64,000 nucleotides of DNA from Chamaesiphon minutus PCC 6605 (GTDB taxonomy: Bacteria > Cyanobacteriota > Cyanobacteriia > Cyanobacteriales > Chamaesiphonaceae): NCBI RefSeq assembly GCF_000317145.1, contig NC_019697.1, positions 806,001-870,000 of the forward strand. The letters run 5' to 3'. A model generated the notes under the pieces. That model did no database searches. It was not told the origin of the DNA and saw nothing but the letters and a program-made list of their open reading frames with translations. The translations under genes were made by a program, and so were the position numbers. Positions 25,642 through 29,164 of the stretch are shown one piece after another (within the stretch, counting starts at the first letter, position 1; each line of letters opens with the position of its first letter).

Positions 25642-26817
25642 ATGAGTAATAAATCCCCGCGTTGCGTTGTTTGCAAACAGATATTTAACGATCGGCACTG
25701 GTATTATCATCAATTATGTGAATCCTGCGGAGACTTTAACTATGACAAACAACAAGCGATCGCCGATCTCAGTGGCAAAATTGCCGTAGTTACTGGAGCG
25801 AGAGTTAATATCGGATATGGAGTCTGTTTGCGATTATTACGATCGGGTGCGAGAGTCATTACTACGACGAGATTTCCCCATCATGCAGCTCAGAAATACA
25901 GTCAGGAAAGCGATTTTGAAAAGTGGCGCAACAGGCTACAGATCTATCCTCTCGATTTGCGAGATTTAGCAAGGGTGGAAGCCTTTACACATTATCTCGC
26001 TGGCGTTTATCCACAGCTAGATATTATCGTCAACAATGCCGCTCAAACCATTCGCCGTCCTCCCGCATATTATCGCCATTTAATCGAGCTAGAATCGCAG
26101 CCTATCGCTCAATTATCCGATCGATTGCAGCCCTTAATTATAAGTCCCGAAGCTAGTCTCGATCGATCTCAAACTAACGCTCTCAATCCCACTCCTAATT
26201 TAGTCTCGATCGCACCAGGCGATCTAGTTGCTAGCTTATCTCAAATTCCCATGTTACCCGAAGATGAGGTAGATCCGGCATTATTTCCGATCGATAAATA
26301 CGATCGAGATGGTAACCAAATAGACTTGCGATCGATTAATAGTTGGTTGCTCAGAGATGATGAAATAAGTATCGTCGAATTATTAGAGGTTCATGTGGTT
26401 AATGCAATCGCACCCTTCGTCATTAATAGTCGGTTGAAAGGAATGATGACTAGACACCAAAATATCGATAAATATATCATCAACGTCTCTTCCCAAGAAG
26501 GCAGATTTAACGGTGTAGATAAACCCTGGCGGCATCCGCATACAAATATGGCAAAAGCCGCACTCAATCAAATGACTCGCACCTGCGCCAAAGAATACGC
26601 CAAACATCGCATCTTTATGAATGCTGTCGATCCAGGTTGGATTAGCTTTCAACATCCACACCCGATCGCGACTGAAATGCTCGATCGAGGTACCGAACCA
26701 CCATTTACAATTATCGATGCCGCCGCCCGAATTTGCGATCCAATTTGGACGGGATTAAATACAGGTAACAATCAATTTGGAAGATTGTTCAAAGATTATA
26801 AAATTGTCGATTGGTAA
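25642..26817 (+). CDS. Atypical short-chain dehydrogenase with N-terminal zinc-ribbon
   Basis: The 391-residue protein joins a CxxC...CxxC segment (RCVVCKQIF and YYHQLCESCGDF, residues 7-30) to an SDR Rossmann domain. The domain has the nucleotide loop AVVTGARVNIGYGV, DLRDL and VNNAAQTIRR. The region that normally holds the YxxxK catalytic pair reads HPHTNMAKAALNQM, so the Lys is kept and Thr stands in the Tyr position. The Ser motif INVSSQEGRF is intact. A long insert (about residues 150-240) follows the NNA motif. Reductase activity is therefore doubtful or altered. The substrate is unknown. Confidence 0.8.
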   Translation: MSNKSPRCVVCKQIFNDRHWYYHQLCESCGDFNYDKQQAIADLSGKIAVVTGARVNIGYGVCLRLLRSGARVITTTRFPHHAAQKYSQESDFEKWRNRLQIYPLDLRDLARVEAFTHYLAGVYPQLDIIVNNAAQTIRRPPAYYRHLIELESQPIAQLSDRLQPLIISPEASLDRSQTNALNPTPNLVSIAPGDLVASLSQIPMLPEDEVDPALFPIDKYDRDGNQIDLRSINSWLLRDDEISIVELLEVHVVNAIAPFVINSRLKGMMTRHQNIDKYIINVSSQEGRFNGVDKPWRHPHTNMAKAALNQMTRTCAKEYAKHRIFMNAVDPGWISFQHPHPIATEMLDRGTEPPFTIIDAAARICDPIWTGLNTGNNQFGRLFKDYKIVDW

Positions 26818-26960: not shown

Positions 26961-28736
26961 ATGACTCCAGCAGAATTAGAATTAATAATCGATCGAGCCA
27001 CCCAAGATCGATCGACTCATCTAGATCTCTATCAGAAATCCATTACGAGCTTACCAGACTCGATCGGCAATCTTACCGATTTAGTCAGCCTCCGGTTGAC
27101 TGGCAATCGACTGACTACCATCCCAGCAAGTATCGGCAATCTTACCAATTTACGTGAGTTAAGACTATACAAAAATCAGCTCAAAACTTTACCAGATAGT
27201 ATTGCCAATCTCCAAAATCTCACCTGGCTGAGTTTGAGCCTCAATCGGCTGACAGTATTCCCCGAAAGCATTACCGAGCTGACTAATCTAACTGGGTTGC
27301 TGTTGAATGGTAATCAAATGGTAGTGCTGCCCCAAAGTATTACTAAGCTGACTAATTTAACCTATTTAGATATTACTGGTAATCCGCTGATGGATCTATC
27401 GGTGCTAAATAGTCTACCAAAATTAAAAACCGTCAAATTCTGGGGTGTTAATTTACCGTGTAAATATTGGAGTGATACAAAATCTTTCTCCTCAGCTTTG
27501 CAGTCAATTAATGGCAATATTGTTGAATGCCAAATCACATCCGAAAATTTAAGATTACTAGGCAAACGATCGCTAATCTGGCTGCCTAGTAATCTAGATC
27601 GGTATTTACCAGCAGAAGCTAAAAAAGATGAAAATATCGATTCTCCGCCTGAAGCTCTTAGCTTCATGGCTAAAGCTGCGAAGCAAATGTTTGGGGAATT
27701 ACTCAAAAATCTGGAGAAAAAGGCTCCAGAGTATCATCTTCATTTGTCAGGAAACAAATTAACTTCTCTGCCATCCGATATCGGCAAGCTGACTAAATTA
27801 ACTTGTATAGAACTAAGCAGCAATAAATTAACATCTCTTCCGGCAAGTATCGGTAACTTAAATAATCTGATTCACCTGGATTTACGAGGCAATCAATTAT
27901 CTTTCTTACCTAACAGTATCGATAACTTAACCAATCTCACTCATCTGTATCTTGGTGGTAATCTTTTTGATTCCTTACCAGATGCGATCGTGGAAATGAG
28001 CACACTGACTCACTTGCATCTCAATTCAAATTCGTTAACGTCATTACCAGAAAATTTGACCAATCTTTTTCAATTGATAGAATTGAATCTAAGTAGCAAT
28101 AATCTCAACAGCTTGCCGCTGCAACTCGACAAATTAACTAAGCTAAAGAAACTAGATTTATCTCATAATAAACTTACTGAGTTGCCGAGTAATGTTGGTG
28201 ATTTAACCGAATTAGTCAACCTAAATTTGAGTGGTAATCAATTGACCTCACTACCATCAAGCATGAGATTTATGATTGAATTGACTAGCTTAGATTTATC
28301 AGAAAACCCTCTTGCCGATCTATCGATTCTTCAACATTTACCCAAGTTACAGTCAATACATTTCCTAGGGTTATATTTACCGCGTCGATATTGGACTAAA
28401 TTGAGTGAATGGAAAGCCGAGTGGTTGCAGGATGAAACAAATGCAGAACTACGACGGAGATTGATTCAACAAATCGGCTACGAACGGATTTGTCAGGAAT
28501 TGGATGCAATCCAGCTTGACTCTTGGCGAGAATATACCTTACTCAAAATCGATGGCATAGAAAGATGGCACGGACATATAGATATTTATGAGTCGATGGT
28601 ATTACTCAAAATGACTTGTCCATCTACGGGACATATCCATGTCTTGCGCGTTCCGCCTGAAATGACAAGTGCGGAGGCGGCGATTACCTGGGTAAATCAT
28701 GGCATTCATCCTGACAAATTTATTGTCCAGACATGA
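26961..28736 (+). CDS. Leucine-rich-repeat protein with C-terminal DUF6745-like domain
   Basis: The 591-residue protein contains two LRR blocks (about residues 15-150 and 250-460). Units such as LPDSIGNLTDLVSLRLTGNR are of the LxxLPxxIxxLxxLxxLxLxxN type. A spacer of about 90 residues lies between the blocks. The C-terminal 130 residues (RRLIQQIGYERICQELDAI, then MTCPSTGHIHVLRVPPEM, then TWVNHGIHPDKFIVQT) match a domain I recall as DUF6745, which often follows LRRs in cyanobacteria. There is no signal peptide. LRR plus effector-like domain suggests protein recognition; the activity is unknown. Start is the ATG at 26961 right after heptamer repeats. Confidence 0.85.
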   Translation: MTPAELELIIDRATQDRSTHLDLYQKSITSLPDSIGNLTDLVSLRLTGNRLTTIPASIGNLTNLRELRLYKNQLKTLPDSIANLQNLTWLSLSLNRLTVFPESITELTNLTGLLLNGNQMVVLPQSITKLTNLTYLDITGNPLMDLSVLNSLPKLKTVKFWGVNLPCKYWSDTKSFSSALQSINGNIVECQITSENLRLLGKRSLIWLPSNLDRYLPAEAKKDENIDSPPEALSFMAKAAKQMFGELLKNLEKKAPEYHLHLSGNKLTSLPSDIGKLTKLTCIELSSNKLTSLPASIGNLNNLIHLDLRGNQLSFLPNSIDNLTNLTHLYLGGNLFDSLPDAIVEMSTLTHLHLNSNSLTSLPENLTNLFQLIELNLSSNNLNSLPLQLDKLTKLKKLDLSHNKLTELPSNVGDLTELVNLNLSGNQLTSLPSSMRFMIELTSLDLSENPLADLSILQHLPKLQSIHFLGLYLPRRYWTKLSEWKAEWLQDETNAELRRRLIQQIGYERICQELDAIQLDSWREYTLLKIDGIERWHGHIDIYESMVLLKMTCPSTGHIHVLRVPPEMTSAEAAITWVNHGIHPDKFIVQT

Positions 28737-28792
28737 GATGAGTCGATCGATTTTACCGCTCGAATTACCATCCTCTGTTAGAATTCATCTGT

Positions 28793-28865
28793 GACGGTAT
28801 AGTTTAATTGGTGAAAATACAATTCTGCTAAGGTTGCGATGGTGGTTCGAGTCCGTCTACTGTCA
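28793..28865 (+). tRNA. tRNA-like gene 1, anticodon position GCU
   Basis: The 73-base sequence folds as a full class I cloverleaf. Acceptor is GACGGTA/TACTGTC and the D-loop AATTGGTGA has GG. The anticodon stem is CAATT/GGTTG with loop CTGCTAA. A four-base variable region precedes the T-loop TTCGAGT, closed by five pairs. Position 33 is T and the anticodon reads GCT. A serine GCU anticodon in a body without the long variable arm is abnormal. CCA is not encoded. It is followed five bases later by tRNA-like 2. Confidence 0.55.
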
Positions 28866-28869
28866 CAAT

Positions 28870-28941
28870 AACAACGTAGTTTAATTGTTAAAACGCTGTG
28901 GAGTATACCCAGTCATGCAGGTGCGAATCCTGCCGTTGTTG
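28870..28941 (+). ncRNA. tRNA-like sequence 2, degenerate loops
   Basis: The 72-base sequence forms a cloverleaf with perfect acceptor (AACAACG/CGTTGTT), D-stem (GTTT/AAAC) and T-stem (GCAGG/CCTGC). Key invariant bases are missing. The D-loop AATTGTTA lacks GG, the anticodon loop GAGTATA has A at position 33, the anticodon stem has one mismatch, and the T-loop reads TGCGAAT. It may be non-functional in decoding or a specialised tRNA-like RNA. A near-identical copy is at 29042. Confidence 0.45.
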
Positions 28942-28964
28942 TTTTCTGCTAAAATCGATACTGT

Positions 28965-29037
28965 GACGGTATAGTTTAATTGGTGAAAACACCTCCCTTT
29001 CACGGATGCGATGATAGTTCGAGCCTGTCTGCTGTCA
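28965..29037 (+). tRNA. tRNA-like gene 3, anticodon UUC (Glu-like)
   Basis: This 73-base cloverleaf shares its acceptor and D-arm with copy 1 (the first 23 bases are identical). Its anticodon arm CCTCC-CTTTCAC-GGATG closely matches cyanobacterial tRNA-Glu(UUC). T33 is present and the T-loop is TTCGAGC. One anticodon-stem pair is mismatched. The acceptor GACGGTA/TGCTGTC is unlike normal tRNA-Glu, so it looks like a diverged or chimeric duplicate rather than the main tRNA-Glu gene. Confidence 0.55.
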
Positions 29038-29041
29038 CACT

Positions 29042-29113
29042 AACAACGTAGTTTAACTGTCAAAACGCTGTGGAGTATACCCAGTCATGTAGGTGCGAAT
29101 CCTGTCGTTGTTG
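29042..29113 (+). ncRNA. tRNA-like sequence 4, copy of sequence 2
   Basis: This 72-base sequence differs from copy 2 at four positions, all C/T. Two of these fall in the T-stem (GTAGG/CCTGT) and leave it pairable through G-U pairs. The same missing invariants apply (no GG in the D-loop, A33, TGC T-loop). With copies 1-3 it makes an ordered 1-2-3-4 array in which 1/3 and 2/4 are the related pairs. Confidence 0.45.
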
Positions 29114-29118
29114 TCTCA

Positions 29119-29164
29119 AAATTCGCGGTAGGGGCAATTCATGAATTGCCCCTACCGCGAATTT
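29119..29164. repeat. 46-bp perfect palindrome
   Basis: A perfect 23-bp inverted repeat without loop, with core GGGGCAATTCATGAATTGCC. It follows the tRNA-like array and precedes the end of ilvC (minus, stop at 29269). It may terminate transcription from either side, although a clear T run is missing on both. Such GTAGGGGCAATTC palindromes are common repeats in cyanobacterial genomes. Confidence 0.75.

Follow-up and report, generated by a model that had tools for sequence, protein, structure and literature searches.

A conserved pair of tRNA-like RNAs accompanies an SDR-fold protein gene in Chamaesiphon minutus and its relatives

The window analyzed here is a 64,000-nucleotide stretch of contig NC_019697.1 from Chamaesiphon minutus PCC 6605, whose genome of 6.76 Mb comprises three contigs. 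Four tRNA-like genes of two alternating types lie in it head to tail on the forward strand: A1 (28793..28865), B1 (28870..28941), A2 (28965..29037) and B2 (29042..29113). All four exceed the gathering score (29 bits) of the Rfam tRNA model RF00005, scoring 57.9, 46.6, 56.1 and 39.4 bits, respectively, the B2 match being seen in a restricted search only. ARAGORN calls three of the four (Ser gct, Tyr gta and Glu ttc) and misses B2. A first-pass annotation, which proposed running both tools, had described four cloverleaves at these positions from the letters alone, and the four RF00005 matches bear it out. Besides RF00005 no curated Rfam family matches, there being only sub-threshold miRNA-family matches at a palindrome downstream of B2, and a blastn search of plasmids and phages with the quartet gave no match.

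The A copies have near-identical bodies and differing anticodon arms. A1 (anticodon loop CTGCTAA, discriminator A) sets a serine GCU anticodon in a body with a short variable loop, while A2 joins the A1 body to a host tRNA-Glu-type arm (UUC), sharing 18 consecutive bases with the host tRNA-Glu but differing from it in the acceptor; the first reading of both mosaics was thus correct. The host genome also carries a housekeeping tRNA-Glu(UUC). The window A copies keep GG, U33 and TTC, and their acceptor stem, as read from the sequence, can be extended to 10 bp (TGTGACGGTA / TACTGTCACA).

Canonical elongator tRNAs share with the quartet a cloverleaf with a 7/5 acceptor branch, but they have G18-G19, U33 and a TTC T-loop, and B lacks all three while retaining intact acceptor, D and T stems, as had been noted. 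A single G stands in the D-loop where G18-G19 is expected, and the T-loop has TGC, not TTC. The two B copies in the window are 94% identical, and their T-stem differences (C-G to U-G, G-C to G-U) do preserve pairing. U33 is absent, as noted, yet this arm of B is no damaged anticodon: a conserved hairpin, in which one U bulges out and six bases form the loop, replaces the anticodon arm and in B1 reads CUG-U-GG-AGUAUA-CC-CAG.

Two forward-strand genes upstream of the quartet went unmentioned in the earlier annotation. The first (25642..26817) encodes a 391-aa protein of the SDR fold (Pfam PF00106/PF13561) and is the conserved upstream neighbour of the A-B pair, hereafter the dyad. The second (26961..28736), between the SDR gene and the dyads, encodes a leucine-rich repeat (LRR) protein with a C-terminal DUF6745 domain (Pfam). 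The SDR protein has an N-terminal CxxC...CxxC and keeps the nucleotide-binding TGxRxxIG. Classical SDRs have YxxxK as their catalytic motif; here TNMAK is found where it is expected, and HxHTNMxK, which from inspection by eye we take to occupy the classical YxxxK site, is invariant in alignments of 10 and 18 sequences. For an AlphaFold model (pLDDT 83.9, pTM 0.87) the 50 Foldseek matches listed are all SDR-type reductases or dehydrogenases, and a PDB sequence search returned SDRs matching the first half only. FabG-like SDR reductases share the Rossmann fold and the TGxRxxIG and NNAAQ motifs with the window protein, but at 14-20% identity, and the window protein adds the CxxC...CxxC and is without the catalytic Tyr. 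The NAD-binding motif is kept, so this SDR may still have a catalytic role. No NCBIfam model reached its cut-off among the best 25 matches listed per protein, PADLOC assigned no family to four SDRs and the LRR protein, and no phage record contained the SDR at E 1e-30.

Each dyad appears to have its own expression signals. Extended -10-like elements lie on the forward strand 17 bases before A1 (TGTTAGAAT, 28776..28784) and 18 bases before A2 (TGCTAAAAT, 28947..28955), as pattern matches only, and the same element is found at -17/-18 of all five dyads of the window and Chamaesiphon polymorphus. In the genus that we label f2, TATAAT or a near form stands at a similar distance. The elements are recognized by comparison of copies alone: a sigma-70 consensus scan of the quartet gave two promoter-like sites against a shuffled mean of 2.5, and these elements were not listed. 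Terminator-like sites number two against a shuffled mean of 0.6, one of them being the T-arm of B1. Downstream of B, both Nostoc and the f2 genus have a T-run. After B2, a long palindrome around GTAGGGGCAATTCATGAATTGCCCCTAC (29119..29164, forward strand), read from the sequence, may be a terminator or a repeat element; its counterpart in C. polymorphus (about 2005-2050 of locus L002) has outer arms changed in a compensating way. Because a promoter-like element stands just before A and a T-run or palindrome after B, each dyad would form one short transcript of about 150 bases, probably cut by tRNA-processing enzymes.

A blast search of 60 relatives with the quartet found three A-B pairs in C. 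polymorphus CCALA 037, whose SDR is 95% identical to that of the window, and, in another family, a B beside a gene resembling tRNA-Asp. Of eight further genomes in the genus, only that of C. polymorphus carries the array. For wider searches we prepared a covariance model, R1, from six B sequences of three genomes; B1 and B2 score 101.4 and 97.3 bits, both being training sequences. Among 291 genomes of the order, R1 gave 18 matches of at least 63 bits in 12 genomes, the next match scoring 48.7 bits; a tally at E 1e-4 (146 of 291 genomes) takes in ordinary tRNAs. R1 was used in place of a strict B pattern, which among 388 genomes of the class matched the window genome and G011 only (the same-genus genome G003 was not among the matches), and whose single match in viral contigs, inside an ORF and with no tRNA called, was rejected as chance. 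Named records added three more loci with B (Nostoc FACHB-152, Nostoc FACHB-973 with two B, and a cyanobacterial MAG), and the B set comprises 22 copies, 19 of them distinct, from 15 genomes or records. The dyad occurs in seven families of the order, one to three pairs per locus, with the same SDR gene adjacent upstream at L022, L024-L027, L029, L031 and L050. A complete A directly precedes B in 21 of the 22 copies; in the other (G521, locus L023) an insertion in the D region breaks A, leaving its 3' part, and B is intact.

B is held both in structure and in its unusual arm. In an alignment fitted to R1, 96.7% of 418 cells are paired over 22 pairs (100% of 132 cells in the six-sequence alignment), and sliding the alignment lowers pairing to 42-46%. 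Two-sided changes occupy 51 cells against a shuffled mean of 16.6, with some in all four helices; further pair types, one of five measures, show no excess (22 versus 23.6 shuffled). The first acceptor pair, at the outer end of the stem, is unpaired in 7 of 19. The arm follows the consensus UGGAG-Y-A-N-ACC in 22 of 22 copies, with the bulged U, two G-C pairs and the 6-base loop, and covariation is seen among its outer pairs; every copy has G at position 55 of the T-loop. The UGG of B might also pair with the CCA end of A in the manner of a T-box. A kissing dimer through the GUAUAC loop palindrome was considered and dropped, other copies having GUAGAC, GCAGAC or GUACAC.

These changes bear on the idea that selfish or decaying tRNA duplicates are simply carried along with the SDR gene. 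Damaged copies exist (the disrupted A of G521, a split SDR frame at L104, an LRR gene apparently short in Deinococcus), and the distribution of B is patchy (12 of 291 genomes), but decay would not predict that each of the four helices of B has two-sided changes, that recent Nostoc copies differ in the D stem in a compensating way, or that the dyad is present in seven families, with the SDR adjoining it at the loci listed above. We consider it most improbable. The first-pass annotation had named a decaying duplication as what a lack of tRNA-sized transcripts, of covariation and of the array in close relatives would imply; B covaries, and one of eight other genomes of the genus carries the array.

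A behaves in the opposite manner to an ordinary tRNA gene. Among 21 copies the acceptor stem is complete (7/7) in 21, the D stem (4/4) in 21 and the T stem (5/5) in 19. Over nine within-genome copy pairs from five genomes, the A anticodon region is 57% identical (shuffled 49%; single pairs 36% to 87%), the A halves 0.89 and 0.88, and B 94%. The match of anticodon to body and the evolutionary stability expected of an elongator tRNA are thus not found in A (0.57 versus 0.88-0.89 for the body). Within one genus (G011, G545, G511) the arms differ in the anticodon alone: GTC, TTC and TAC. In Nostoc FACHB-973 (L124, 7100-7640) a tandem duplication of the SDR 3' end plus A plus B has accumulated one change in B, many in the A arm and compensating changes in the D stem. 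One A copy, G488_3, is without an anticodon stem, and in the f2 genus A carries C33 together with TTT in its T-loop.

Several A copies keep U33 and A37, and several look able to decode. It has to be weighed, then, whether A are working accessory tRNAs for GNN codons and B a by-product. A fits RF00005 well, and PMC10272220 supplies a precedent, a 26-gene tRNA operon of Anabaena induced by translational stress. Against such a role, conservation is strongest in B, where no loop could plausibly serve as an anticodon loop, an anticodon stem is lacking in G488_3 and not clear in one of two Acinetobacter tRNA-likes described below, the bodies stay constant while the anticodon changes, and a housekeeping tRNA-Glu(UUC) is already in the genome. 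This makes accessory decoding very unlikely in our judgement.

Long cyanobacterial tRNA arrays of the Anabaena trn type also cluster tRNA genes, and the first-pass annotation likened the quartet to anomalous arrays of cyanobacteria. That was the wrong class: the arrays scanned here have 5-20 mostly ordinary, differing tRNAs in 3 kb without A-B order, whereas the dyad is an ordered A-B with a near-constant hairpin and a link to SDR and LRR genes. A likeness does exist at the level of one gene. The strongest non-B matches of R1 (46-48 bits) include several array tRNA-Met(CAU) genes, and the array tRNA-Met(CAU) at L033-L037 and L040-L045 has a TGC T-loop in 7 of 11 cases by eye. Judging from these features, B and array tRNA-Met(CAU) may be linked by descent, the array tRNA being a possible source of B.

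Two other unusual tRNA loci were seen in the same genome. At L005 (G000:C1:5486000-5488500, minus strand; about 590-1605) a second odd cluster comprises four tRNA-likes, two of them near-identical tRNA-Asp genes, each interrupted in the anticodon loop or close to it by an insert of roughly 50 bases; a motif near GGGACGTAGAACGAGGGTTATCG is common to the inserts, and three of the hosts have a TGC T-loop. Group I introns are far longer than these inserts, and the insert motif was not found in viral contigs. At L006 (244-312) a 69-base tRNA receives a two-base anticodon call from ARAGORN, yet 56.9 bits from the Rfam tRNA model.

The SDR gene provides a second route to related loci. Among the 291 genomes, B is found in 10 of 13 that have the cyanobacterial SDR clade, defined by scores above 600 bits, with the split match of G488 added (Fisher p 1.8e-14, ignoring kinship and with the threshold set after scores were seen). 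SDR occurs without B in G510 (at a contig end), G059 and G527, and B without a scored SDR in G521 and G455. Scanning genome contigs with an SDR alignment gave at least 236 confirmed loci, 80 of them named; in these 80, nine ARAGORN tRNAs lie within 1 kb of the SDR (156 kb) versus three elsewhere (710 kb). tRNA-likes stand just before the SDR on the same strand in Candidatus Parabeggiatoa, cyanobacterium UBA8803, a Desulfobacterales bacterium and Chitinophaga pinensis. In an uncultured Acinetobacter MAG (L107) they follow the SDR, one of the two having no clear anticodon stem. Actinoplanes cyaneus has two before an open frame containing a second SDR copy. In other cyanobacteria, long SDRs of about 480 aa are closely preceded by one to four tRNA-likes at ten loci (L143-L147, L149, L151, L152, L154 and L157, L143 being on the contig of L061), with mostly 8-bp acceptors by ARAGORN; none was called upstream of the long SDR at L150, L153 and L155, the last having little upstream sequence. 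Viral contig L161 has two tRNA-likes divergent from the SDR, the second found by eye, together with a methylase/ParB gene (Pfam) and an integrase-like ORF (by eye). A plasmid search with this viral SDR returned a single record at E 1e-40, from Deinococcus sp. KNUC1210, in which a TGC tRNA-like ends 57 bases before the SDR and an LRR-family start follows it (by eye); this later match fits the linkage pattern. As a separate observation, the Candidatus Parabeggiatoa contig L060 has repeated Acido-Lenti-1 RNA matches at 12-307.

The link is far from universal. In wider surveys the SDR was found at E 1e-80 in 14 of 247, 3 of 321, 3 of 148 and 55 of 197 genomes, and 46 new loci examined (L177-L222), out of 71 new genomes with a match, had no tRNA-like by ARAGORN or R1. 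Rfam in permissive mode revealed no hidden tRNA at 13 unlinked loci (seven unlinked SDR loci, four named actinobacterial ones and two from the survey of the Chitinophaga class). In all, 21 of 143 SDR loci are linked to tRNA-likes, an underestimate: a manual list excluded 26 of 169 loci as duplicated or only partly matching, among them the linked L148, L149, L151, L152, L154, L157 and L133 (= G011). L052 and L107 were counted as linked through R1 matches, the window and L051 as unlinked, since the LRR gene pushes the dyads more than 1 kb away or the contig stops short. One locus is represented twice, by the contig-end copies L053 and L140. Unlinked relatives are many and, among named ones, mostly actinobacterial. 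A tree of 63 SDRs, taken from 140 proteins with a usable frame (the remainder of the sample random, the window labelled linked by hand), places linked SDRs in several deep branches, with seven changes of state against a shuffled mean of about 18. With branches this long we are unsure whether an old link was lost in some clades or several gains occurred.

At most linked loci the tRNA-likes lie close to the SDR and on its strand, and the Nostoc A begins about 10 bases after the SDR stop. Such closeness would suit a processing or stability element, punctuation cut by RNase P/Z where the SDR message ends or begins. Yet the geometry varies, the RNAs lying after the SDR, before it or, in L161, divergent from it, and in the window about 2 kb and the LRR gene intervene and separate promoter-like elements are present; anticodon hypervariability and the B hairpin would also be left unexplained. 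We hold punctuation to be quite unlikely.

The LRR partner is frequent beside the longer SDRs. Neighbour clustering finds an LRR gene after the long SDR at L061, L224, L225, L226, L227 and L229, and at Actinoplanes L223 an LRR match lies in a frame overlapping the SDR and running beyond it. By eye, an LRR gene also follows the SDR at L235 and, apparently cut short, in Deinococcus, and no LRR neighbour is visible by eye at L052, L054, L063, L107, L124, L228 or L230-L234. A 227-aa stretch before the Actinoplanes SDR was considered as an LRR/DUF6745 relative and rejected, being unrelated to the window protein. Repeat proteins that look pentapeptide or HEAT-like by eye lie just upstream of the SDR at L234 9539-10669 (G011) and L104 4683-5830 (a cyanobacterial MAG).

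Across the linked loci the changing anticodon mostly follows one rule. C36 is found in 40 of 47 ARAGORN anticodons at 29 linked loci versus 22 of 141 in array tRNAs (p = 5e-18, a value that is too small because related loci are not independent), and 28 of the 29 loci have at least one C36 anticodon. The control consists of ten loci with ordinary cyanobacterial tRNA clusters, one of which (L038) contributes just five tRNA genes. Anticodons were entered manually and related loci were not down-weighted, G452 giving four of the 47. The count omits the two-base call of G509, B-type calls, the Deinococcus TGC found later, and copies missed by ARAGORN: L052, two in L107, the second in L161, the first and third of G488, and the B-adjacent A of G013. 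The C36 anticodons cover 13 of 16 NNC types, and the 47 calls comprise 18 anticodons on several related bodies.

C36 helps recognition by the Gly, Val, Asp and Glu synthetases, and it is left unexplained by the readings offered here except for charging by these enzymes or GNN decoding. It fits both, so the charged form may matter. A and the long-SDR tRNA-likes could accordingly be aminoacyl donors, the SDR using or modifying the amino acid in a tRNA-dependent biosynthesis and B serving as a non-charged helper. In favour, GNN codons are those read by C36 anticodons, every one of the 21 A copies has an intact acceptor, an encoded CCA follows A in the f2 genus, and the SDR keeps its nucleotide-binding motif and CxxC pair. 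Against a donor role, 13 of 16 NNC types mean that even close relatives would carry different amino acids (GTC, TTC and TAC in one genus), the G3-U70 of alanine tRNAs is absent from the 21 A acceptors examined, two Nostoc A copies are without a normal discriminator plus CCA, and the SDR is without the catalytic Tyr. We regard donation as unlikely, though it accounts for a rule that a bait role does not predict.

Among known systems the allo-tRNAs come nearest to A in one respect. The review PMC7609411 describes 8/4 and 9/3 forms with a 12-bp acceptor branch and very diverse anticodons, doubts a translation role for some and reports irregular-tRNA polycistrons; the word 'dehydrogenase' does not occur in it. 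The diversity of anticodons unrelated to the body is shared with the A set, but the acceptor branch is 7/5 in A and B and, by ARAGORN, 8/5 in most long-SDR RNAs, neither 8/4 nor 9/3. For the protein there is a parallel of another kind. The SDR5C1 subunit of human mitochondrial RNase P is an SDR-fold protein working with tRNA; the present SDR is likened to it by fold and putative tRNA involvement and has its own N-terminal CxxC pair. Searches of mainly open-access literature, by title and start of abstract, brought up no paper describing a bacterial SDR gene linked to tRNA-like genes or hypervariable anticodon arms.

We are highly confident that the quartet consists of one conserved unit of two RNAs, present twice in tandem, and that this unit accompanies an SDR-fold protein and, at some loci, also an LRR protein; A is a tRNA-like body presenting a fast-changing anticodon arm, mostly with C36, and B a similar body presenting a near-constant, non-anticodon hairpin. 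The cross-family pairing of A and B, the covariation of B, the holding of the A body but not its arm, and the linked protein gene support an earlier suggestion that a tRNA-derived RNA has taken another role. What that role is can be proposed with less assurance. The variable arm of A may act as a bait or recognition surface for an anticodon reader or cutter, perhaps an anticodon nuclease from a phage or a rival, or else some component of foreign translation. B could be the constant docking element for the SDR, which would be an RNA-binding or NAD(P)-sensing partner, not a classical dehydrogenase, and the bait would be renewed by arm exchange with host tRNAs together with fast mutation.

A held body, a changing arm, a constant partner and a protein without the catalytic Tyr fit a bait better than decoding. 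The explanation as a whole, namely a conserved dyad, a joint transcript and a non-decoding bait with an SDR partner, seems to us evenly balanced between right and wrong. Its functional part, the non-decoding recognition or bait role of the RNAs, is put forward tentatively, from sequence comparison, as the likeliest of the readings considered though less likely than not; a defence role would draw on the hypervariability, the LRR neighbours and one viral contig. More doubtful still is the broadest proposal, an undescribed and widespread recognition system by tRNA mimicry, with a constant B, a diversifying A whose anticodon (N34 and N35 free, C36 held) is the specificity element, an SDR reader binding NAD(P) and RNA, a frequent LRR partner, and arms partly copied from host tRNAs; at the long-SDR loci both RNAs of the pair would diversify.

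tRNA bodies are among the most constrained of RNAs, and a held body with a diversifying arm beside a constant partner is the reverse of ordinary tRNA evolution. Tools of the ARAGORN type give such genes the names of ordinary tRNAs for Ser, Glu, Asp, Val, Gly or Ala. The C36 rule is a sharp clue to what reads the A arm, and since the RNAs go with one protein family across several phyla, the system is open to bench experiments. The tRNA-likes beside related SDR genes in several bacterial phyla point to an unrecognised RNA-protein system.
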